Source: a virus. From it: 29,471 nucleotides of DNA. The stretch is taken from the IMG/VR virus record IMGVR_UViG_3300048550_000035, positions 1-29,471 of that record; one strand, written 5' to 3'. Shown here piece by piece: positions 3,084-12,776 of this stretch. Each line of letters opens with the position of its first letter. Positions within the stretch are counted from its first letter, which is position 1. Made by a program: the position numbers and the translations under genes. The notes beneath the pieces are model-generated. The model had not been told where the DNA came from and searched no databases. It saw only the letters and a program-made list of their open reading frames with translations.

Positions 3084-4196
3084 CTATACACCTTCCTGTT
3101 GCTTCAACGCAGATGATACCCATGTTTTTCTAGTTGTCAAGGCATTTGTTGCAGACGCTAGAGTATTTTTCATATAGGGTTTTACTGACGCAGGGTTAGA
3201 ATGCCCACTGACCGACATGATTTGAGGTAATGGCACACCCCCATCAACCATCTCCATGATGCCTGTCCTACGTAAGTCCATCAGCCGTTTGTGTTTAGGT
3301 ATACCATTCCTTTCCATTAGCAATCTACCTCTTTTGGATAGGCTTTCTAGTGTGTAAGGTAGGTACTCCCCATCAATAGGATATACTCTTGGTGCTACGT
3401 ACTGTTGAAAGCCAAAGTCTTTCTTCTGTTGTAGTAGCATCTCTCGTAGGTCATCCTCTACAGGTATCTCCACCTTTGCTCTACGTTTAGACTGCTGCAA
3501 ATATAACACAGCCATGTCATCACTTAGACTATCCCATTTTAAATTACGCATGTCACCTAACCTCTGACAAAACTCAAGAGCCATGTGTATGATTAAGCCT
3601 ATGTTACGTGTGTACCAATTGGAATAGGCATCATCAAGAACGGCTCTTACTTCTTGCCTAGTCCATACATCAGTACGCTTGAGTGCAGTCACACGTTTGA
3701 TACGTGAGAAAGGATTAACTAACACTAACTCTAGGTTAAATGCCCAGTTATATACTGTAGACATACAACTAGTAATGTGATTAGCTTGTGTAACACCCTG
3801 CTCAAGCCACAGTTGATAGTGTTTCTTAGCAAGCTTAGTGCCTATGGCCTTTACTTTGTACCTACCTAGTGTCTTTTGTGCAACACTTAGAAAGTATTTA
3901 TAGTCCTTCTGTGTTTTAGGTCTTAACATTTTCCAAGCTTGCGAGTGGCAGTAAGCATCAATCAGGTGAGTCAAGGTACTACTTGCATTTGCTTTTATTA
4001 CTGTTGCATTTTTGTCATACCAGTCATTTATCCTTTGGTTATCTTCACGTACAAGCTTGCGTACCTGCTTGAGATCAGACCCAAACTGTCTGCGTGTGAC
4101 AACACCTGCATCGACTAGCTTCTGTGGTGGGTTGAATCTGTACTCAACCACACCATATGCCGTAGTCCTAGCTTGTATATATCTAGGCAATGCCAT
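3084..4196 (-). CDS. int: tyrosine recombinase / phage integrase
   Basis: This 370-residue protein has an N-terminal arm region, a SAM-like core-binding domain at about 75-165 and a catalytic domain at about 175-345. Recognisable catalytic positions are R212 in CQRLGDMRNLKW, a probable K237, R309 in LMDLRRTG, H332 in SGHSN and the nucleophile Y341 in KPYMK. The position that is usually His in the H-x-L-R box is Met306 here, a tolerated but less common variant. The start codon overlaps the DUF932 stop by one base (TAATG) and the stop is followed directly by primase. Integrase is thus embedded inside the replication operon rather than beside an obvious attachment site. It implies a temperate or recently temperate phage. 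Confidence 0.9.
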   Translation of the reverse strand: MALPRYIQARTTAYGVVEYRFNPPQKLVDAGVVTRRQFGSDLKQVRKLVREDNQRINDWYDKNATVIKANASSTLTHLIDAYCHSQAWKMLRPKTQKDYKYFLSVAQKTLGRYKVKAIGTKLAKKHYQLWLEQGVTQANHITSCMSTVYNWAFNLELVLVNPFSRIKRVTALKRTDVWTRQEVRAVLDDAYSNWYTRNIGLIIHMALEFCQRLGDMRNLKWDSLSDDMAVLYLQQSKRRAKVEIPVEDDLREMLLQQKKDFGFQQYVAPRVYPIDGEYLPYTLESLSKRGRLLMERNGIPKHKRLMDLRRTGIMEMVDGGVPLPQIMSVSGHSNPASVKPYMKNTLASATNALTTRKTWVSSALKQQEGV

Positions 4197-5945: not shown

Positions 5946-6482
5946 CTAAAAATCTCCTCGTACTTTTTGTATAAGCTTAATTGCTTTATGCAATTCTTCT
6001 TCTAGCCTAGAGATCTTATCTCTGTTAGCTTGCCATAGAATACCTATCCCACCTGCATCTGTCCACTGCTTTACATTAGTGTGCTTGTCATCAATAAGAA
6101 TGTTGGGTGTACCATCTATCCTATCAGTAGCAAACTTGTGCTTGGTGTGGGTAAAGATCAGCCTATGTTTAGGTGGCATTAGACCATGCGATTCCAACCA
6201 TCTACGTTTCCAATAGACACAGTTATCTCTGTCATTACGCAATGGTGTAGAACATATGCCCCAACCTAAGTGAGGATACTTGTACGTCAACTCTTTGATG
6301 TGACCCACAAGATGATAGGTTGTATCAAATGCTTTTAGATTCCAAAAGAAATTGGTATCCTTTAATTGAGCAAGAGCTTCATTAATATCTTTGATATCTT
6401 TCCAATGAGCCACATCAAAGTGTGCTTCTAGCCCACCAAAGAAGTCAGCTAACACACCATCCATATCTAAATATATAATCAT
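5946..6482 (-). CDS. HAD-superfamily 5'(3')-deoxyribonucleotidase-like phosphatase
   Basis: This is a 178-residue protein. Motif I is YLDMDGVLADF with the nucleophile D6 and acid/base D8, followed by the NT5C-type pattern. Motif II is in GICSTP (S78 or T79). A lysine lies in THTKHKFA, and motif IV is ILIDDK (D131, D132). This matches the NT5C/YorS group, which dephosphorylates deoxynucleoside monophosphates, so a role in nucleotide pool control is likely. The start overlaps the methyltransferase stop by four bases (ATGA), showing translational coupling. Confidence 0.8.
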   Translation of the reverse strand: MIIYLDMDGVLADFFGGLEAHFDVAHWKDIKDINEALAQLKDTNFFWNLKAFDTTYHLVGHIKELTYKYPHLGWGICSTPLRNDRDNCVYWKRRWLESHGLMPPKHRLIFTHTKHKFATDRIDGTPNILIDDKHTNVKQWTDAGGIGILWQANRDKISRLEEELHKAIKLIQKVRGDF

Positions 6483-7465
6483 CTCTTTACTCCTTTCAAT
6501 GCTTGGTATCCACAGCCACAGCCATCAAACAAACTAACGACAGTACCCAACTTATCTTGTGGTATGCCATTGAGTATGTGCTTGATAACATCCACTGTCC
6601 AACCATTGCCAATCATCTTGTACCGCCTTGAATTGCTTATCTCTTTCATGGGTTTAGTAAGACCATCAGCATCGTGCATGTCACCATACTTTGTGTACCC
6701 ATCAGGCATAGTCTGCAATCGTTCACACTCAAGAGGTGTCAATGCTCTCCAACGCAAGTCACCATCCTCAACCTTCGGCATGCGCCACCCACCTTGCATG
6801 GTGGTCAGGCCAGAGGACTTAGCTTTGCGAGAGTAGACACGCTTGATAATGTCATAGCCTTTGAGGTTAGCTTCACCCACTTGTCTACACTGAGTGTGCT
6901 TGTTGAACACCACTTGTCTACGTGACTTCTCAAAGTACATCTTCATAGATCCACCCTTGAAATAGTTAGCGTCTACACAGTAGGCTTTCTCCCTGTCGGT
7001 CATGCTCTCATCCTCAAGGATATCCTCAAGGTTGATACCAAGATCAGGCAGATCGTCATGGGGTATGTTAGTCCAATACAATCTCTTCCTGTTCTGTGCA
7101 GACACAGACGCAGAGTTATGTACTCTAGGTTCACACCCAAACTCATGTGAGAATATGTCTTGATACTCCTTCTTCATAGGTGTCTCTTCAATTAGGAAGT
7201 ACTTAGGCTTCCACTGGTGAAACAATCTGAAGAACTCTATCGTTGGCTTGGCTCTCTCGTCATTGAAGTTAAGCTGATTACCTGCAAAGGAGAAGGGTTG
7301 ACAAGGTGGGCCTGCCATTAGCAGGTCTATACCTTTGTGTACATACATAGGATGCTTGTGCATATCAAGTACGCTACCCATCTGCTTTACCATAGGATGA
7401 TTGTAGTGAGCGACCCCCATAGAGTAGGGGTCTATCTCACTTGCGAATGCTTGTTGGTATTGCAT
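6479..7465 (-). CDS. DNA cytosine-5 methyltransferase, circularly permuted
   Basis: This 328-residue enzyme should methylate cytosine in DNA with AdoMet. Motifs in order are: a motif II-like segment (FASEIDPYS, 7-15), motif IV with catalytic Cys55 (GPPCQPFSFAG), motif VI position LIEETPM (E-E-T instead of the usual E-N-V), motif VIII QNRKRLYW (124-131), a variable target-recognition stretch to about 235, motif IX LTPLECERLQTMPDGYT (242-258), motif X GNGWTVDVI (286-294), and finally motif I VVSLFDGCGCGYQALKG (309-325). Motif I is normally first. The ATG overlaps the upstream stop (TAATG), and an in-frame TAA two codons earlier rules out an upstream motif I. A palindromic repeat lies 24 bases upstream. 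The motifs are clear; activity and target are unknown. Confidence 0.9.
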   Translation of the reverse strand: MQYQQAFASEIDPYSMGVAHYNHPMVKQMGSVLDMHKHPMYVHKGIDLLMAGPPCQPFSFAGNQLNFNDERAKPTIEFFRLFHQWKPKYFLIEETPMKKEYQDIFSHEFGCEPRVHNSASVSAQNRKRLYWTNIPHDDLPDLGINLEDILEDESMTDREKAYCVDANYFKGGSMKMYFEKSRRQVVFNKHTQCRQVGEANLKGYDIIKRVYSRKAKSSGLTTMQGGWRMPKVEDGDLRWRALTPLECERLQTMPDGYTKYGDMHDADGLTKPMKEISNSRRYKMIGNGWTVDVIKHILNGIPQDKLGTVVSLFDGCGCGYQALKGVKR

Positions 7466-7794
7466 TAACCATTAACCTTTCTCTTGGACTGTCCAACGTT
7501 GGACACTTTGTGAGTACCTTTATCGATCGTAACACCACGCTTGAATACAATGGTATCAGGGTGATTCTTTTGTAGGAAAGCTACACGATACGCAATCCTA
7601 TTCTTGGACTCGTTAAGTATAGATGCGGTCTGCTTGATGGTGTATTCGTCATACATTTCCATCAGTATACCATCAATGATAGCGTAGTTGTAGGTGAAAG
7701 GCATAGCCTTTTTGAAATGCTTAGTGTGCGTTGAATAGTCCACGACATTTATTGCAGGGTTTTCGTTCTTAATTGTGTTGGTTTCTTTTGTCAT
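7465..7794 (-). CDS. small probable helix-turn-helix protein
   Basis: This 109-residue protein is not assigned to a named family. Residues about 44-76, YDEYTIKQTASILNESKNRI onward, have the spacing of a helix-turn-helix (alanine in the first helix, LNES turn, RIAYRV recognition-type helix). The basic C-terminus, ending near SNVGQSKRK, is encoded across a copy of the 16-bp palindrome. The protein sits between two overlapping genes (4 bases upstream, 1 base downstream). It is a candidate regulator that might bind the palindrome, but no evidence beyond position and fold guess supports this. Confidence 0.6.
   Translation of the reverse strand: MTKETNTIKNENPAINVVDYSTHTKHFKKAMPFTYNYAIIDGILMEMYDEYTIKQTASILNESKNRIAYRVAFLQKNHPDTIVFKRGVTIDKGTHKVSNVGQSKRKVNG
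7490..7505. repeat. 16-bp palindrome, copy 1 (exact)
   Basis: TGTCCAACGTTGGACA, a perfect palindrome. It lies inside the 3' end of the HTH gene, where it helps encode SNVGQS, and 24 bases before the methyltransferase ATG. Confidence 0.85.
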
Positions 7795-8048
7795 ATCAAG
7801 TTCTCCTTATCATATGATGTTGCGTCTTGGGGTTGGTGTATGTAACCTAGATTACTAGGCTCATCTTCAATCTCGTACTCTTTTACGAAATCAAATTCGG
7901 TGGTGAAGGTAGGGTAGAATAGTTTTGCTAGTCGCATCACATGATCTACCGCATCCTTCCAATCTTTTACAGGTGTAGCATTGCTATCTAGTGTCACGAT
8001 AGATGGTTGCTTTTCTATTGATATACCTATCTCGTAATAAGTTGCCAT
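7791..8048 (-). CDS. hypothetical 85-residue protein
   Basis: I do not recognise this protein. It starts MATYYEIGISIEKQP, has a predicted strand-helix pattern with a KDWKDAVDHVMRLAK helix, and ends in an acidic, polar tail. The ATG at 8048 is chosen because GAAGGAGATGAC lies just before it; an upstream in-frame start at 8069 would ignore that site. The stop overlaps the next start (ATGA). Confidence 0.65.
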   Translation of the reverse strand: MATYYEIGISIEKQPSIVTLDSNATPVKDWKDAVDHVMRLAKLFYPTFTTEFDFVKEYEIEDEPSNLGYIHQPQDATSYDKENLI

Positions 8049-8049
8049 G

Positions 8050-8169
8050 TCATCTCCTTCGTTTAGCAAGGCTATCTATCTTAGCGATAAGCCAACCTGT
8101 TATGAAGCATGCATATCCAAATACACATGCCATGAAAAACCACATATAAATTTCTGGTATCTGTTCCAT
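8050..8169 (-). CDS. 39-residue single-pass membrane protein
   Basis: The peptide begins MEQIPEIYMWFFMACVFGYA and continues with CFITGWLIA, then KIDSLAKRRR. It has one transmembrane segment and a basic C-terminus, so an outside-to-inside orientation with the tail in the cytoplasm is predicted. Its ATG overlaps the stop of the upstream basic peptide (TGATG), and its stop is one base from the next start. It is too short to assign; the hydrophobic pattern and tight coupling support that it is real. Confidence 0.6.
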   Translation of the reverse strand: MEQIPEIYMWFFMACVFGYACFITGWLIAKIDSLAKRRR

Positions 8170-8315
8170 CACGCATATCTCCTTTTGTTCTTGCGTTCCT
8201 GTCTGTACACATTGCCATGTCTCGTCTTGTCTCTGAGGTTAAGCTTCTTCTTCTGCTTGAACTTCTCAAAGTTCTTTACTTCGTAGTGCGTTACGTTTCT
8301 CTTTTGCTCTGTCAT
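8169..8315 (-). CDS. 48-residue basic peptide
   Basis: The peptide begins MTEQKRNVTHYEVKNFEKF and is rich in Lys and Arg throughout. AAAGG lies about six bases before the ATG. It overlaps the preceding 51-residue gene by 50 bases in a different frame and shares TGATG with the following membrane peptide. No family is recognised. The overlap makes it less certain than its neighbours. Confidence 0.5.
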   Translation of the reverse strand: MTEQKRNVTHYEVKNFEKFKQKKKLNLRDKTRHGNVYRQERKNKRRYA

Positions 8316-8421
8316 AGCTACCTTTTCCTTTCTTAGGTTTAACAGTTTGTATTGGTTTACGTAGCATAAGCAAAGCTTTTGCCACAGGATTAACTCTTGT
8401 AATTGTAAGTTTCTTTTTCAT
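8266..8421 (-). CDS. 51-residue basic peptide
   Basis: The peptide begins MKKKLTITRVNPVAKALLML and continues RKPIQTVKPKKGKGSYDR. Its start overlaps the upstream stop by four bases (ATGA). The KPKKGKGSYDR-type segment resembles short basic proteins often found among early genes of small tailed phages, so I regard it as a true gene. No biochemical role is known to me. Confidence 0.6.
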   Translation of the reverse strand: MKKKLTITRVNPVAKALLMLRKPIQTVKPKKGKGSYDRAKEKRNALRSKEL

Positions 8422-9152
8422 GCTACCCACTTCTTTCCTGTACCATGTGCAGGTATCAGTATGGACTTGGCATTGATCTTCATGCCACTACACAGCTTGC
8501 ACTTGTCACATGTCGTACGTCTACCTGCTTCCTCACTTGCAGGACAGAGTACCTCTTTGTCTTTCACCATAGAAGTAAGGTGGCCTACCCTGAAGGTACG
8601 CTCACCCTTTGACCATGCTTCACGTGCTTCTTCCACTGTGTCAGCACTACGCATACACACAGTAGGATCGTAGTCAGCACCAACTGTATTAGCTTGGTGA
8701 CTGTAAGCTGTATGTGCTTTAGCATGCTTGATCCATAGCTTGTTATTTCTCTTAGGCACACAAGCAGGATCACCATACATACCTAGACGTACAGTCCTAT
8801 CCTTTGTCATCTCAACAAAGTCAACTGTCTTGATGCGAGGGTATTTACCTGCCTTGTATGCTTTGTACACACCTAGTATACCTAGCAACATGACATAGCA
8901 TCCACGTTCATCAGCCGTAGCACGATCATCTCTGTCATGTGCCTTGCCACGTAAATGACAAGTGCCACAGATAGAGTAGTCCTCACCACTCTTGTTGGCA
9001 GAGATAGGATCAATGTCACTGCGTATATATAGGATTTGTATCATCTTACCTGTCTTGCTATTGCTACTACCCATTAGAGCTATCGCTACAATAGGCTTGC
9101 CATCAAGTAAGCTTGTACCTTCCCATAGTGTGTATCCATTTGGCTTAGTCAT
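8418..9152 (-). CDS. conserved phage protein with several Cys pairs, function unknown
   Basis: This is a 245-residue protein. It opens with GYTLWEGTSLLDGKPIVAIA and has cysteine groups at C62-G-T-C65, C85-Y, a single cysteine in TVCM, and a C-terminal group in CPASEE...CDKCKLCSG, which suggests bound zinc or an iron-sulfur cluster. I recall similar proteins in many phages without a known function. I start at the ATG at 9152 because AAAGG precedes it; the upstream TTG at 9167 would place that site inside the gene. A palindromic repeat lies 21 bases upstream. Confidence 0.75.
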   Translation of the reverse strand: MTKPNGYTLWEGTSLLDGKPIVAIALMGSSNSKTGKMIQILYIRSDIDPISANKSGEDYSICGTCHLRGKAHDRDDRATADERGCYVMLLGILGVYKAYKAGKYPRIKTVDFVEMTKDRTVRLGMYGDPACVPKRNNKLWIKHAKAHTAYSHQANTVGADYDPTVCMRSADTVEEAREAWSKGERTFRVGHLTSMVKDKEVLCPASEEAGRRTTCDKCKLCSGMKINAKSILIPAHGTGKKWVA

Positions 9153-9173
9153 CTTATTACCTTTCAATTAAAG

Positions 9174-9189
9174 TGTCCAACGTTGGACA
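9174..9189. repeat. 16-bp palindrome, copy 2 (exact)
   Basis: TGTCCAACGTTGGACA in the gap between two leftward genes. It lies 21 bases before the ATG at 9152 and one base after the stop codon of the gene upstream. Confidence 0.9.
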
Positions 9190-9190
9190 G

Positions 9191-9436
9191 TTACCCTTCG
9201 TTACCACAGAGGCTATCCCATTCGGCAGGTGTAACACCTGTCATAATGAACTCTCGCTGATCTGCACTAAGGGCAGGGAATACGTCTTGAACGCATTCAT
9301 TCCCAACGTAGTAGCGATCAAGCATACCTTGAGTGACAGGTAGCACCATTGAGTTCACATTACCTGTGAAGTCTGATGAACGAGTGAGTTCTACTGAACC
9401 CTCTGATACATGAGTACAATTCCAATTAGTATACAT
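9191..9436 (-). CDS. hypothetical protein with PALSADQREFIMTGVTPAEWD motif
   Basis: This is an 81-residue protein. The C-terminal part reads FPALSADQREFIMTG followed by VTPAEWD. Similar short motifs occur in many phage and plasmid proteins of unknown function, which supports a real gene. The N-terminus (MYTNWNC...) is less conserved-looking. AAAGG precedes the ATG, and a palindromic repeat lies 21 bases upstream. Its stop codon is one base from the next palindrome copy. Confidence 0.7.
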   Translation of the reverse strand: MYTNWNCTHVSEGSVELTRSSDFTGNVNSMVLPVTQGMLDRYYVGNECVQDVFPALSADQREFIMTGVTPAEWDSLCGNEG

Positions 9437-9457
9437 TTAAAAACCTTTCAGTTAGGG

Positions 9458-9473
9458 TGTCCAACGTTGGACA
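9458..9473. repeat. 16-bp palindrome, copy 3 (exact)
   Basis: TGTCCAACGTTGGACA, 21 bases before the ATG at 9436. The flanks (GTGTCC... and ...ACAGTTTCAAT on the plus strand) match copy 4 as well. Confidence 0.9.
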
Positions 9474-9495
9474 GTTTCAATTTATCTTTACTATA

Positions 9496-9550
9496 ATACA
9501 CTAGTTATATAACACTTTCATATATATTTCAAGTGTTATATAACGTGTAT
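9496..9550. repeat. large AT-rich inverted repeat
   Basis: GTTATATAACACTT (9504-9517) is repeated in inverse as AAGTGTTATATAAC (9531-9544), a perfect 14-bp match around a 13-base loop. Outside it ATACAC (9496-9501) pairs with GTGTAT (9545-9550) after a two-base bulge. No T-run follows on either strand, so a simple terminator is unlikely. It occupies most of the gap between two leftward genes. Confidence 0.75.
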
Positions 9551-9558
9551 ATAGTATA

Positions 9559-9858
9559 CTAGGAGAAGCGATGCAAGGTTGCCATCAAAGTTCGTGTCCT
9601 TTTTTGCAAGGCTTTACACCTGTCAAAAACGTCACGTGACCTGTCATCTGACTGCAAGTCGCTCAAGCATTCATCCAAGCTATCGAATACGTGTTCGAAA
9701 TCAGTGTCGAACATGTTGCCATGTACACCTTCACCGAACAAGGTATTGAACTCTCGGCTTGCTTGCGTCATAGCTTCACCCAATTCACCCAAGCTATTCG
9801 CTAACTCTTGCATGACGGCTCTATTTATTTGATCTTCAGTCAATTTAAACTTATCCAT
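9559..9858 (-). CDS. hypothetical helical protein
   Basis: This 99-residue protein is acidic and largely helical (LTEDQINRAVMQELANSLGE near the start; LDECLSDLQSDDRSRD in the middle). No family is recognised. AAGGAATAAAA precedes the ATG. The variant palindrome at 9879-9894 is 20 bases upstream, and a large inverted repeat follows the stop. Confidence 0.6.
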   Translation of the reverse strand: MDKFKLTEDQINRAVMQELANSLGELGEAMTQASREFNTLFGEGVHGNMFDTDFEHVFDSLDECLSDLQSDDRSRDVFDRCKALQKRTRTLMATLHRFS

Positions 9859-9878
9859 TTTTATTCCTTCAAGTTAAG

Positions 9879-9894
9879 TGTCCAATGTTGGACA
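9879..9894. repeat. 16-bp palindrome, copy 4 (one change)
   Basis: TGTCCAATGTTGGACA, 20 bases before the ATG at 9858. The only change is C to T in the central CG step. It lies three bases from the stop codon of the upstream gene. Confidence 0.85.
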
Positions 9895-9897
9895 GTT

Positions 9898-10128
9898 TCA
9901 ATCTAGGTCTAAGACCCATTCGCCATTACGATACCACGCTAGGTATTCGTAGGAAACCATATGCCCCTTGACCCATTCGCCTACAGCACCTTCCTCGACC
10001 CACTCTTTAACTTTAATTGTGGGTACACCATCTAAGCTTACAACCTTTACGACTTCGCACTCTATATGCCCATAGTCTGTGCCGTAGCCTGAGTTGATCT
10101 TGTGACATGTTACTTTCATACCTTGCAT
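9898..10128 (-). CDS. hypothetical protein, small beta-rich
   Basis: This 76-residue protein appears to be a small beta barrel (CEVVKVVSLDGVPTIKVKEW, then LAWYRNGEWVLDLD). It has no motif I can name. AAGGATAAAATC precedes the ATG at 10128; an inner ATG three codons on is possible. A degenerate relative of the palindrome (CCAAGGTTGG) lies about 35 bases upstream. Confidence 0.55.
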   Translation of the reverse strand: MQGMKVTCHKINSGYGTDYGHIECEVVKVVSLDGVPTIKVKEWVEEGAVGEWVKGHMVSYEYLAWYRNGEWVLDLD

Positions 10129-10165
10129 GATTTTATCCTTATAAAATTTGAGTTACTGTAGACCC

Positions 10166-10227
10166 AAGGTTGGTAATTTCTTTCTGTTAATTCAGAGAAT
10201 TCAGTTACGTAAATTCCAACCAACCTT
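10166..10227. repeat. imperfect inverted repeat in intergenic gap
   Basis: AAGGTTGGT (10166-10174) faces ACCAACCTT (10219-10227), and the arms continue with AATTT after a three-base insertion in one arm. AAGGTTGGT recurs at 11025-11033. The left arm is part of CCAAGGTTGG, which resembles the core of the 16-bp palindrome. Confidence 0.45.
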
Positions 10228-10229
10228 AG

Positions 10230-10253
10230 TAAAAGTTACCTAGAAAGGTAACT
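10230..10253 (-). terminator. weak hairpin at the end of the first leftward gene
   Basis: On the minus strand AGTTACC (10253-10247) pairs with GGTAACT (10240-10234) around a six-base loop containing the TAG stop, followed by a short T-run (TTTT). It could attenuate transcription, but the U-run is short. Confidence 0.4.
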
Positions 10254-10917
10254 CTTCGTTTGTGATGTTCTTGACTTGAACTTTCTTTATTCCTTCAAGA
10301 TCTGTCTTGACTAAGATAGTCTCTTGAAAATCATCTACAGGATCTTTTCCTTCCGCAACTTCTAACATCCAATCGGCAATGTCTAAGACCGATTTGTTGT
10401 GAACATCAGCCCAAAGTTTAAGAGCTTGCATGACGCTCTCTTTTGAACTTCCAAGAGAGATCTGATCTGTCTTTACCTCTGGTTTTACTTTGGCTTCAGA
10501 CTGTCCAACGTTGGACTCTTTGGAAGTTTCTTTTGAACCTTCAACTTCAGAAGGTACTTCCGTAGATTTCTTCCAAGCTTTAAGCAAAGCGGTAATGTTC
10601 GTGAATCCTTTCTTTGAGGATTTGCAAAACTCTCTGAGTTCAACAATGTTATCGAAAACTTTCAGAGCTTCATTCAATCTCCTTCTATCTATAGTGGAGA
10701 TACCTACCCTGATCTTCTGATCTCTACCGACTATTCCTTGGTCGGAAGGGCTTTCGGCTCTAAGCTGTGCCATAACTTTGCCAAGTCTAAGATCAAACCC
10801 TTTGTCAGAGATACAAGTCTTGACATTGTTAGTCTGCTTCCAGATCCTAGCAAGAGTTTTGCCCTCTTTGGCTAGATCAGCAATCGAAAGTGGAGAAAAT
10901 GTGATTTGATTTTGCAT
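10240..10917 (-). CDS. first gene of the leftward block, unknown function
   Basis: This is a 225-residue protein not recognised by me. The N-terminal 110 residues appear globular (SIADLAKEGKTLARIWKQTN; ISTIDRRRLNEALKVFDNIV). A polar Ser/Glu/Lys linker follows at about 118-158, then a helical segment (VMQALKLWADVHNKSVLDIA) and a short tail ending EELPF. The linker includes ESNVGQS, encoded by a palindrome copy. AAGGA lies upstream of the ATG. As the promoter-proximal gene next to the divergent control region it could be a regulator or an early takeover protein; this is inference from position only. Confidence 0.7.
   Translation of the reverse strand: MQNQITFSPLSIADLAKEGKTLARIWKQTNNVKTCISDKGFDLRLGKVMAQLRAESPSDQGIVGRDQKIRVGISTIDRRRLNEALKVFDNIVELREFCKSSKKGFTNITALLKAWKKSTEVPSEVEGSKETSKESNVGQSEAKVKPEVKTDQISLGSSKESVMQALKLWADVHNKSVLDIADWMLEVAEGKDPVDDFQETILVKTDLEGIKKVQVKNITNEELPF
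10502..10517. repeat. 16-bp palindrome, copy 5 (one change, within coding sequence)
   Basis: TGTCCAACGTTGGACT, inside the 225-residue gene, where it encodes part of ESNVGQS. The last base differs from the others. No start codon follows it at the usual distance. Confidence 0.8.
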
Positions 10918-10960
10918 TTGAACTTATTCCTTTTTCATTTTTTATTGTAATTTTAAGAGA

Positions 10961-10994
10961 AATTATATCTCTCACAAATAAGTGAGATATAATT
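10961..10994. repeat. inverted repeat with back-to-back TATAAT elements
   Basis: AATTATATCTC (10961-10971) faces GAGATATAATT (10984-10994), a perfect 11-bp match around a 12-base centre. Each arm reads TATAAT on one strand (minus 10967-10962, plus 10988-10993). The minus-strand TATAAT lies about 45 bases before the 10917 ATG and is the best leftward -10 candidate, but no good -35 is spaced from it. Confidence 0.55.
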
Positions 10995-11139
10995 TATCTG
11001 AATTACTAGTAATAAAAAATGGTTAAGGTTGGTCGGCCTTTTGTGTAGCGTATGTGATCCTCTGCTCCTGCCGTTTCCCACGTGACTGCAAGTATCTACG
11101 ATACTGAAGTTCGTGCGTGAAACTCGTGAGGATTTTTGG

Positions 11140-11155
11140 TGTCCAACGTTGGACA
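11140..11155. repeat. 16-bp palindrome, copy 6 (exact)
   Basis: TGTCCAACGTTGGACA in the divergent control region, about 220 bases before the first leftward gene and about 350 bases before the rightward promoter. Confidence 0.9.
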
Positions 11156-11508
11156 GTGGTTATGGTGCATCGGCAACCTCAAATCGGTACTGTTTTGGTG
11201 GTGTTGCTAATCTGTAACACTTTGACTGTGGCAACTGATGTGATAACAGCTACCAATGAACCTTTAAGTGCCTTGTTTTGCTGAGTTTCTGTGTGTAATG
11301 GGTGAGTGTATACATCCACAATGCATCCACCACCGATGAGTGACTGCCCAATGCATGCCTAATGCACCTGATCGATGGGTGGGTGCGAGGGCCACCCCAC
11401 ATGCGTACGTATATATCTACATATCTATACACAGATCAGGTAAATCACTTGTTAACCACATTATATGTATCATAAATACCACACACCTAGTATAATCGTA
11501 TATACACG

Positions 11509-11537
11509 TTGACTGCCCTATTGTTTTGTGATATAAT
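11509..11537 (+). promoter_or_regulatory. sigma70-type promoter for the rightward block
   Basis: TTGACT (11509-11514), a 17-base spacer, then TATAAT (11532-11537). Transcription would start near 11544 and give a leader of about 130 bases before the first ATG at 11674. It is among the best promoter matches seen in the window. Confidence 0.75.
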
Positions 11538-11560
11538 TATATATAGATAGAACGAACGGT

Positions 11561-11635
11561 ACACTTTAACTGTTAACACTCTAACTATATATTCACTTAA
11601 AATATAAATACACTTTAAATGCTAAACACTTAAAC
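11561..11635 (+). repeat. five phased ACACTTTAA-like direct repeats
   Basis: Related decamers start at 11561 (ACACTTTAAC), 11576 (ACACTCTAAC), 11593 (TCACTTAAAA), 11610 (ACACTTTAAA) and 11626 (ACACTTAAAC). Spacing is 15, 17, 17 and 16 bases. They lie in the leader downstream of the rightward promoter. Confidence 0.6.
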
Positions 11636-11673
11636 TGTATAGTATTCGTACTTTTTTAAAAAAGGTATTGACA

Positions 11674-11880
11674 ATGGCTAAAAAATCAGTAAAACTATAT
11701 ACAGACAATGTTATAGAAGAGTTCTATAAAGCTATAGCTAACAATAGTCTACATAAACTCCACATACCTCACAGTGATGTATTCTACGTGCGAAAGGCAG
11801 TAGAGTCTCACTATGGTAGGTCTTTTTCACTTAAAGAAGTGGAAGAAGCAATGATCGCTGAAGGGTGGTCTGGTAATTAA
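11674..11880 (+). CDS. hypothetical 68-residue protein, first gene of rightward block
   Basis: The protein starts MAKKSVKLYTDNVIEEFYKA and has a helix-rich C-terminus (YVRKAVESHYGRSFSLKEVE). No family is recognised; a small DNA-binding role is possible. I choose the ATG at 11674 over the TTG at 11668. The ribosome site AAAAAAGG overlaps a perfect 14-bp palindrome (11651-11664), which could hide it in the mRNA. Confidence 0.65.
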   Translation: MAKKSVKLYTDNVIEEFYKAIANNSLHKLHIPHSDVFYVRKAVESHYGRSFSLKEVEEAMIAEGWSGN

Positions 11881-11900
11881 AGTATAAGGGAACTTTAAAT

Positions 11901-12776
11901 ATGGCAAGAGATTACAGTACTAATAGATATAAAAAGAAGATTAAAGAGATACAAAAGCAGAAAAGAACTGCAGAAGATAAACGAAAGTCAGTAACAGACC
12001 TAAAGAAAGAAGTACGTAGCAATAAAGCTATCGGTGCTTATAACAAGGGTAAGAAAGCAAATGAAGCCTTTGGTAAAAGAGTACAGTCTATACTAGATGC
12101 ATTCAAACCTAAGAAGAAAGCCAAGCCCGGTGTTAGGTCAGGTATAAAAACAAATACTAAAGTTGGTGGCAGTTCTGCTGTAGGAACATCTGGTATGGGA
12201 ACACGTAGTGGAGTAAAGACAGGCATAGATCGTGCAGGGCCAAAGGGCTATAGAAGAAAGCCTAGAAAACAAGAAGAGGCAGATGCAGGTTACAGATATG
12301 GTTTAACTACAATGCGACCAAATATGCCTAAGTCAAGAGCAACCCCCGGCACATCTGGTATGGGAGATCGTGCAGGGCCTAAGACAGGTGGCAGGAAGCC
12401 TAAGACTTTAACTGAATCTCAAAAGAAAGCAATACGAGATACAAAGCAAGTAACAGTTAAGAGTGGGGATACCCTAACCGATATAGCTAAAAAGAATGGT
12501 ACAACTGTAGCTAATCTTAAAAAGATCAATCCTCAAATTAAAGACCTTAATAAGATTAAGCCCGGACAGAAGATCAGAGTCGGTGGATCAGATGCTTATC
12601 AAAAGAGAATTGGACAAGTGTCTAAATCTCCCGATAAGCCACGTACAATAGCACAAGCACAGAAGATGGGAAAGAAATATTTTTTCGATAAGAACGGCAA
12701 GCGTAAGGTAGCCGTAACTGCAGAGCAGCTTAAGAAGTCAGGTCTAACCCTGTCTCAATGGCTTAAAAAGAAATAG
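11901..12776 (+). CDS. LysM-domain protein, probable virion or cell-envelope associated
   Basis: This 291-residue protein has a basic N-terminus. The Gly-rich middle carries two copies of a TSGMG...RAGPK module (about 95-115 and 150-161). A LysM domain lies at about 183-228 (VTVKSGDTLTDIAKKNGTTV, then NLKKINPQIKDLNKIKPGQK). The C-terminus, AVTAEQLKKSGLTLSQWLKKK, resembles a tail motif I have seen on other marine-phage proteins. LysM binds N-acetylglucosamine-containing polymers such as peptidoglycan. There is no catalytic domain, so it is not a lysin by itself. AAGGGA precedes the ATG. Confidence 0.75.
   Translation: MARDYSTNRYKKKIKEIQKQKRTAEDKRKSVTDLKKEVRSNKAIGAYNKGKKANEAFGKRVQSILDAFKPKKKAKPGVRSGIKTNTKVGGSSAVGTSGMGTRSGVKTGIDRAGPKGYRRKPRKQEEADAGYRYGLTTMRPNMPKSRATPGTSGMGDRAGPKTGGRKPKTLTESQKKAIRDTKQVTVKSGDTLTDIAKKNGTTVANLKKINPQIKDLNKIKPGQKIRVGGSDAYQKRIGQVSKSPDKPRTIAQAQKMGKKYFFDKNGKRKVAVTAEQLKKSGLTLSQWLKKK

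Follow-up and report, generated by a model that had tools for sequence, protein, structure and literature searches.

What protein reads a 16-bp palindrome that is repeated six times in the early region of a marine phage, and what would it control there? The palindrome, GTCCAA-N2-TTGGAC, is found in the IMG/VR virus record IMGVR_UViG_3300048550_000035, which was analysed over its whole length of 29,471 nucleotides (hereafter the window). Its copies are likely operators through which gp01, a 225-residue protein encoded among them, represses the early genes, and gp01 is very probably the protein that binds them, as judged from the comparison of related genomes. This reading is carried by the computed sites themselves, their strict placement, their restriction to gp01-bearing genomes, their concerted switching from one sequence type to another and the covariation of that type with one face of a gp01 helix.

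A scan of the window recovered the six copies that a preliminary description of the sequence had listed, of which four match exactly and two carry a single change (Table 1), and no further copy at up to three mismatches anywhere in the record; at this threshold, shuffled sequences contain on average 0.17 copies, with a maximum of two. Reading of the sequence also confirmed that four of the copies stand 20-24 bases before leftward ATG codons, a purine-rich ribosome site separating each copy from its ATG. Two of the copies overlap open frames, the one at 7490 that of a 109-residue protein and the one at 10502 that of gp01, and both are read there as S-N-V-G-Q-S. The same description had considered the center of the palindrome, the would-be loop of an RNA hairpin, to be as conserved as the stem, which does not hold uniformly, as relatives differ in the two central bases (CG 113, TG 41, CA 20, GG 16, and CC 7). 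Its proposal that the copies form a dispersed operator set for a phage regulator finds strong support in the sites, their placement, their co-occurrence with gp01 and their switching.

The distribution of the palindrome was determined in 14 named genomes of the HMO-2011 type, to which the window belongs. Whole-genome scans for GTCCAA-N2-TTGGAC found five copies in CRP-1, six in CRP-345 and none in the other 12 genomes, each of the two counts including one look-alike in the integrase gene and the CRP-345 count a further copy within a replication gene; the reversed pattern had no match in scans of the same kind. The first gene of CRP-1 and of CRP-345, gp01, is the counterpart of the gene of the 225-residue protein in the window, and an unannotated homolog is present in HMO-2011 (GU557055, 54165-54785; L078, 8883-9503), in the gap before the first annotated gene. 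HMO-2011 lacks the palindrome of the window and has five copies of its own, GTCCGACAGCGGAC, in which the outer half-site is the same and which are laid out in a matching way: 286 nt upstream of gp01, directly after gp01 and before further early genes. No gp01 was found in CRP-2, 3, 9, 13, 207, 212, 235, 603, and 738, HTVC033P, and ctYwJ313, the search covering for some of them the first 15-26 kb and the last 10 kb, early region included. Nor was a comparable dispersed palindrome found in the other members, some of them scanned over the first 15-26 kb, except for a three-copy GTTTAA repeat of CRP-9 that lies within 100 nt. Among the 14 named genomes, dispersed palindromes occur only in the gp01 encoders CRP-1, CRP-345, and HMO-2011. 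Random scatter over the genome and loss of position in related phages had been named in advance as grounds for abandoning the operator proposal; the copies are confined to the early region, and their positions are kept in relatives.

A wider view was obtained from IMG/VR, which was searched with a gp01 alignment and without use of the palindrome. The search returned 80 loci, and all 80 carry the palindrome as either type A (GTCCAA-N2-TTGGAC) or type G (GTCCGA-N2-TCGGAC). Nearly all gp01-bearing loci hold 2-8 copies, usually of one sequence type per genome, and some of the 80 have only two because the locus is short; 348 copies are exact versus 10 with one mismatch. In distinct loci, type-A genomes contain 283 A and 2 G copies, and type-G genomes 65 G and no A copies, while GTCCTA-N2-TAGGAC and TTCCGA-N3-TCGGAA are rare types. 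Scans of whole contigs showed that type-G sites cluster around gp01.

The type of the sites is matched by the sequence of gp01. Across 74 distinct gp01 proteins, the columns that best separate the types fall in one short stretch, a site-encoded column aside, and the triplets at residues 109, 113, and 116 do not overlap between the two sets, one truncated row being left aside: they are TAR, TKR, TKK, TRK, SRR, TRR, TRS, TLS, and VRK with type A, and SKN, SKS, SKQ, SKK, SKY, SKA, and KKD with type G. Residue 136 was rejected as a specificity residue because it is merely the translation of the site itself. No conserved A/G-discriminating column was found in any other early protein. On a gp01 tree built from residues 8-104 only (97 columns), leaving out the discriminating helix, the operator type changed seven times, six of these changes being forced by well-supported branches; the combined helix state followed the operator in an average of 5.8 of six independent pairs and never in the opposite sense (sign test p ~0.03). 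The loci L049 and L143 share 195 of 217 gp01 residues, yet all of their sites have switched, at matching offsets (-244/-245, 409/403, 975/966, 1367/1319, and 2454/2406), and their helices differ only by R113K, R116N, and E117A. The window and L116 form another close pair with switched operators. Copies internal to gp01 switch type as well, unlike the look-alike GTCCAAGGTTGGAC that type-A genomes often carry within the integrase gene and that is altered in HMO-2011 and in the window; this sequence was rejected as an operator because it remains GTCCAAGGTTGGAC in four type-G genomes, as a coincidental coding of MERLSKVGR.

Divergent gp01 relatives were fetched after the rule had been set, as a further test. 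S109 and K113 occur with type-G sites in L209, L212, and L216, and T or V109 with R113 occurs with type-A sites in L206, L207, and L213-L215, the latter being close to L098 or L033 of the first set and hence weaker tests. L208 has Q109 and a new type, GTCCTACCTAGGAC (GTCCTA), in three copies, and L210 has an asymmetric site, TGTCCAA-N2-TTGGTCA. In L218 and L219, IEARRR replaces IDRRR and the sites are TTCCGA-N3-TCGGAA, which suggests a second specificity element that would read the first base of the half-site. The numbers in these tests are small, and the new operator types are descriptive. As a separate observation, the mixed sites of L008 / L220 (two A and two G) go with T, S, and K at 109/113/116 and may reflect a specificity that is intermediate or relaxed.

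The placement of the sites is equally constrained. The 330 distinct copies are divided into 54 upstream of gp01, mostly at -225 to -307 relative to it, 67 inside gp01 and 209 downstream. The internal copy is present in 66 of the 74 distinct loci, always in one reading frame and mostly at nucleotides 349-451. Downstream copies are followed by a ribosome site and an ATG within 45 nt in 56% of the cases, versus 22% for random positions, and in 100 of the 118 copies of this kind the gap to the ATG is 17-21 nt. The consensus of the ATG-proximal class is TgAAAC-cGTCCAATGTTGGACA-CTTTaaa-gga-ATG, and a promoter-like TTATATAA element precedes 43 of 109 ATG-proximal copies and none of 222 others. Among the copies that are not symmetric, those inside gp01 or downstream of it lean to CGTCCAAYGTTGGACA in the gene direction, and those upstream of it often to the reverse. 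Because the roughly 20 nt from copy to ATG are too few to accommodate a promoter, activation from the ATG-proximal sites appears unlikely, and a block between promoter and gene, or ahead of an oncoming polymerase, would fit. The AAGTGTTATATAAC-type element of the window (Table 1) is possibly a phage early promoter, with a presumed promoter activity, or else a second regulator site; a simple sigma-70 scan of window positions 7000-12000 gave the same number of matches as shuffled sequences.

The AlphaFold model of full-length gp01 consists of a high-confidence helical domain (residues 12-120), a disordered linker (123-153), which contains the site-encoded SNVGQS, and two C-terminal helices; the domain modelled alone has a predicted template modelling score (pTM) of 0.83. 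Residues 109, 113, and 116 stand at i, i+4, and i+7 on one face of the high-confidence predicted helix 108-119. Searches of Pfam, PHROG, and the PDB for relatives by sequence or fold gave nothing usable: a Pfam scan of 59 gp01 members returned scattered weak matches only and no recognisable helix-turn-helix (HTH) family, and the domain model had no PDB match below E 1. BFVD contains one match of 205 residues, the same length as the HMO-2011 homolog.

The mechanism proposed is that gp01, as the first gene of the early operon, encodes a protein that would bind GTCC(A/G/T)A-N2 inverted repeats directly, probably as a dimer, through helix 108-119, with residues 109 and 113, together with 116, determining the fifth base of the half-site. 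From sites upstream of gp01, within the gp01 gene itself and, at the downstream early genes, between the promoter and the ribosome site, it would shut down early transcription, that of gp01 included, either by blocking initiation or as a roadblock to elongation. Repression is preferred to activation in this proposal, and an autoregulated early repressor or roadblock fits.

The sites might instead be bound by another phage protein, such as the 109-residue protein, which the preliminary description had put forward along with the 225-residue one, or a small acidic protein, gp08. Both families occur exclusively or preferentially in motif-bearing phages. Nevertheless, in neither family does a conserved column distinguish A from G genomes, their best columns being scattered variable residues, and no member of the 109-residue family was found in the site-bearing G004, G005, G006, G013, G014, and L007. 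The 109-residue protein, neither universal nor covarying, was rejected as the binder, and a phage protein other than gp01 is quite improbable, whereas the 225-residue candidate is favoured by co-occurrence, concerted switching and covariation on its helix face. A host regulator exploited by the phage is extremely unlikely: phages often borrow host factors, but all copies in a genome switch type along with a phage gene, and a host factor does not explain the distribution of the sites because CRP-1 has the same host as CRP-2, CRP-9, and CRP-13. If the copies were RNA hairpins in early mRNA leaders, acting in translation control or pausing, their position immediately before ribosome sites would be accounted for, and the 16-mer does fold into a stem of 5-6 pairs (-6.5 kcal/mol) in which the A-to-G switch preserves pairing. 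However, the innermost AA..TT / GA..TC pairs are kept as strictly as the outer stem, though the innermost pair is impossible across a 2-base loop; three leaders of the window show no or slight gain in stability over shuffles (z -0.1, -0.5, and -1.75); copies also stand 170-310 nt upstream of gp01 and within genes; and the type change tracks residues on one face of a protein helix. Such hairpins are very unlikely, and an RNA family search of the sequence gave no match.

Two further explanations accept the palindrome as a DNA element and give it another role, or none. The copies could be centromere-like or replication sites bound by gp01, in the manner of ParB/parS partition, in that they are 16-bp palindromes, some of them in genes, close to the gene of their binder, and gp01 resembles ParB in its architecture, in which a disordered linker stands between an N-terminal domain and a small helical region at the C terminus. 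A ParB-family binder with an adjacent ParA is nevertheless missing, as gp01 has no significant Pfam ParB match and no ParA is annotated in CRP-1, CRP-345, or HMO-2011, and partition does not predict a fixed gap of 17-21 nt to an ATG with a ribosome site in between, so that this role is highly unlikely. A short mobile palindrome that spread in the phage with no regulatory function could also have left copies within genes, always in one reading frame inside gp01, but the syntenic positions in relatives, the concerted type switching, the absence of copies outside the early region and the lack of a common flank beyond a few bases reduce its probability to almost nil.

Several points weigh against gp01 as the early repressor. 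L008 (two A and two G copies), L031, and L151 are mixed loci; the covariation amounts to six independent pairs and a 97-column alignment, and recombination within gp01 could blur the count. The small acidic protein (CRP-1 gp08) co-occurs with the motif too, without covariation. Furthermore, gp01 has no recognisable DNA-binding family, and DNA contact by its helix is a model-based proposal. The case for gp01 is computational, and the purpose of the system may be either lysogeny and immunity or shut-off during lytic growth. Of these, an immunity role finds no support, given that a search of 84,980 bacterial and archaeal species genomes yielded neither a gp01 relative nor a prophage with gp01. 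CRP-3, the one HMO-2011-type member shown to integrate (PMC6918029), has no gp01.

Table 1. Features of the window discussed in the text (the window is 29,471 nt long; coordinates on the strand presented).
Feature	Coordinates	Strand	Remarks
Tyrosine integrase	3084..4196	-	Pfam PF00589; without the look-alike site present in other members (homologous place altered)
C5 cytosine methyltransferase	6479..7465	-	Pfam PF00145, E 4e-25; putative target gene downstream of the 7490 copy
109-residue protein	7465..7794	-	Other candidate of the preliminary description; 3' end contains a copy; several motif-bearing genomes lack the family
Putative operator copy	7490..7505	.	Exact; 24 nt before methyltransferase ATG (7465), in 3' end of 109-residue gene
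Putative operator copy	9174..9189	.	Exact; ATG 9152 follows at 21 nt
Putative operator copy	9458..9473	.	Exact; 21 nt before ATG (9436) of 9191-9436 gene; downstream of promoter-like AT-rich element; context common to relatives
Promoter-like AT-rich element	9493..9541	-	AAGTGTTATATAAC...TATTAT, read leftward; immediately upstream of 9458 copy
Putative operator copy	9879..9894	.	One change (TGTCCAATGTTGGACA); 20 nt before ATG (9858) of 9559-9858 gene
gp01, proposed operator-binding early regulator	10240..10917	-	225 aa; co-occurrence and specificity covariation
Putative operator copy	10502..10517	.	One change (TGTCCAACGTTGGACT); inside gp01 gene, linker codons
Predicted recognition helix of gp01	10561..10596	-	Residues 108-119 (ITALLKAWKKST); AlphaFold models; discriminating residues 109, 113, 116
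Putative operator copy	11140..11155	.	Exact; 223 nt upstream of gp01 ATG, divergent early/late intergenic region

By its genes, the window is a fragment of an HMO-2011-type marine podovirus. Its terminase (TerL) shares 77% identity with its counterparts in HMO-2011 and Roseobacter phage CRP-1, it encodes a DnaB-type helicase and an integrase, and it has the common gene order of the type, with early and late modules and the integrase upstream of the replication module; the late genes run rightward, the early genes leftward, and a divergent region separates them. It falls in the same group as the HMO-2011-type phages described earlier (PMC9038755, PMC6918029), which are reported to be both dominant and widespread in the ocean (PMC9038755). 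The main texts of these two papers make no mention of a repressor, palindrome or promoter, and a literature search for the exact palindrome motif gave no match.

A few neighbouring observations stand on their own. At 5946-7465 of the window, a 5'-deoxyribonucleotidase-like gene adjoins the C5 cytosine methyltransferase gene, the latter being preceded by an operator copy. The gp01 leader contains an AT-rich inverted repeat at 10963-10992 (TTATATCTCTCACAAATAAGTGAGATATAA), and L210 has a hairpin of different sequence (ATATCTCTCCCTTTAGGGTGAGAGAGATAT) at the same place. In contigs of unrelated large phages, L095-L096 (G007, 31.7 kb) and L097 (G012, 18.2 kb), the 16-mer of the window recurs in 5-7 near-exact copies, mostly in coding sequence, always with a CG center and sometimes flanked by CCTGTTA/TAACAGG, in a loosely parS-like manner; Mom-like, SNF2 helicase, nucleotide-sugar, and GIY-YIG genes are also present there. 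These contigs yielded no gp01 relative and were set aside.

For the HMO-2011-type phages, for which no regulator or operator is described in the papers found, gp01 would be a candidate master regulator with its sites and a residue-to-base code; it is very probably a previously unrecognised gene-control protein in a very common marine phage group. It would also provide a handle on whether those members that carry an integrase are truly temperate and on how they exclude one another. The protein further points to a DNA-binding domain for which no relative has been solved, and the odds are about even that gp01 founds such a family, with a specificity set by a repeatedly switched two- or three-residue code, a palindromic stoperator-like system and regulatory sites placed in its own coding sequence by means of a disordered linker.

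Among known systems, the λ CI/Cro-type HTH repressors resemble gp01 in that it would probably bind an inverted repeat as a dimer, helix residues setting the specificity; their operator, however, is tripartite and located at one switch, whereas the gp01 sites are dispersed single copies, and an HTH recognisable by sequence or fold, as in the XRE/CI, TetR, and other known families, is not found in gp01. The inverted repeats of the phiC31 repressor are also palindromic and dispersed, over the early region and close to the repressor gene, a likeness by description, the protein and the site sequence being different as far as is known. In the stoperators of the Cluster A mycobacteriophages (L5, Bxb1, and TipsytheTRex), the sites are found at promoters and in short intergenic gaps, and motif and repressor diverge together into specificity groups (PMC9283540, PMC6550527). 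The gp01 system shares with them numerous sites, placed at promoters or in short gaps, and the joint divergence of motif and putative repressor. The Cluster A sites are oriented with transcription, and their bound repressor stops elongation and provides immunity. In L5, more than 20 asymmetric sites of 13 bp, each bound by a monomer, occur across the genome, while those described here are near-perfect inverted repeats with a variable 2-base center, 2-8 per genome and in the early region only, and gp01 has no detectable relation to the L5-type repressors, which have an N-terminal HTH and a stoperator domain. The comparison with L5 made in the preliminary description thus holds for a possible mode of action and fails for family membership, and by analogy the Cluster A stoperators would be the functionally nearest known system.

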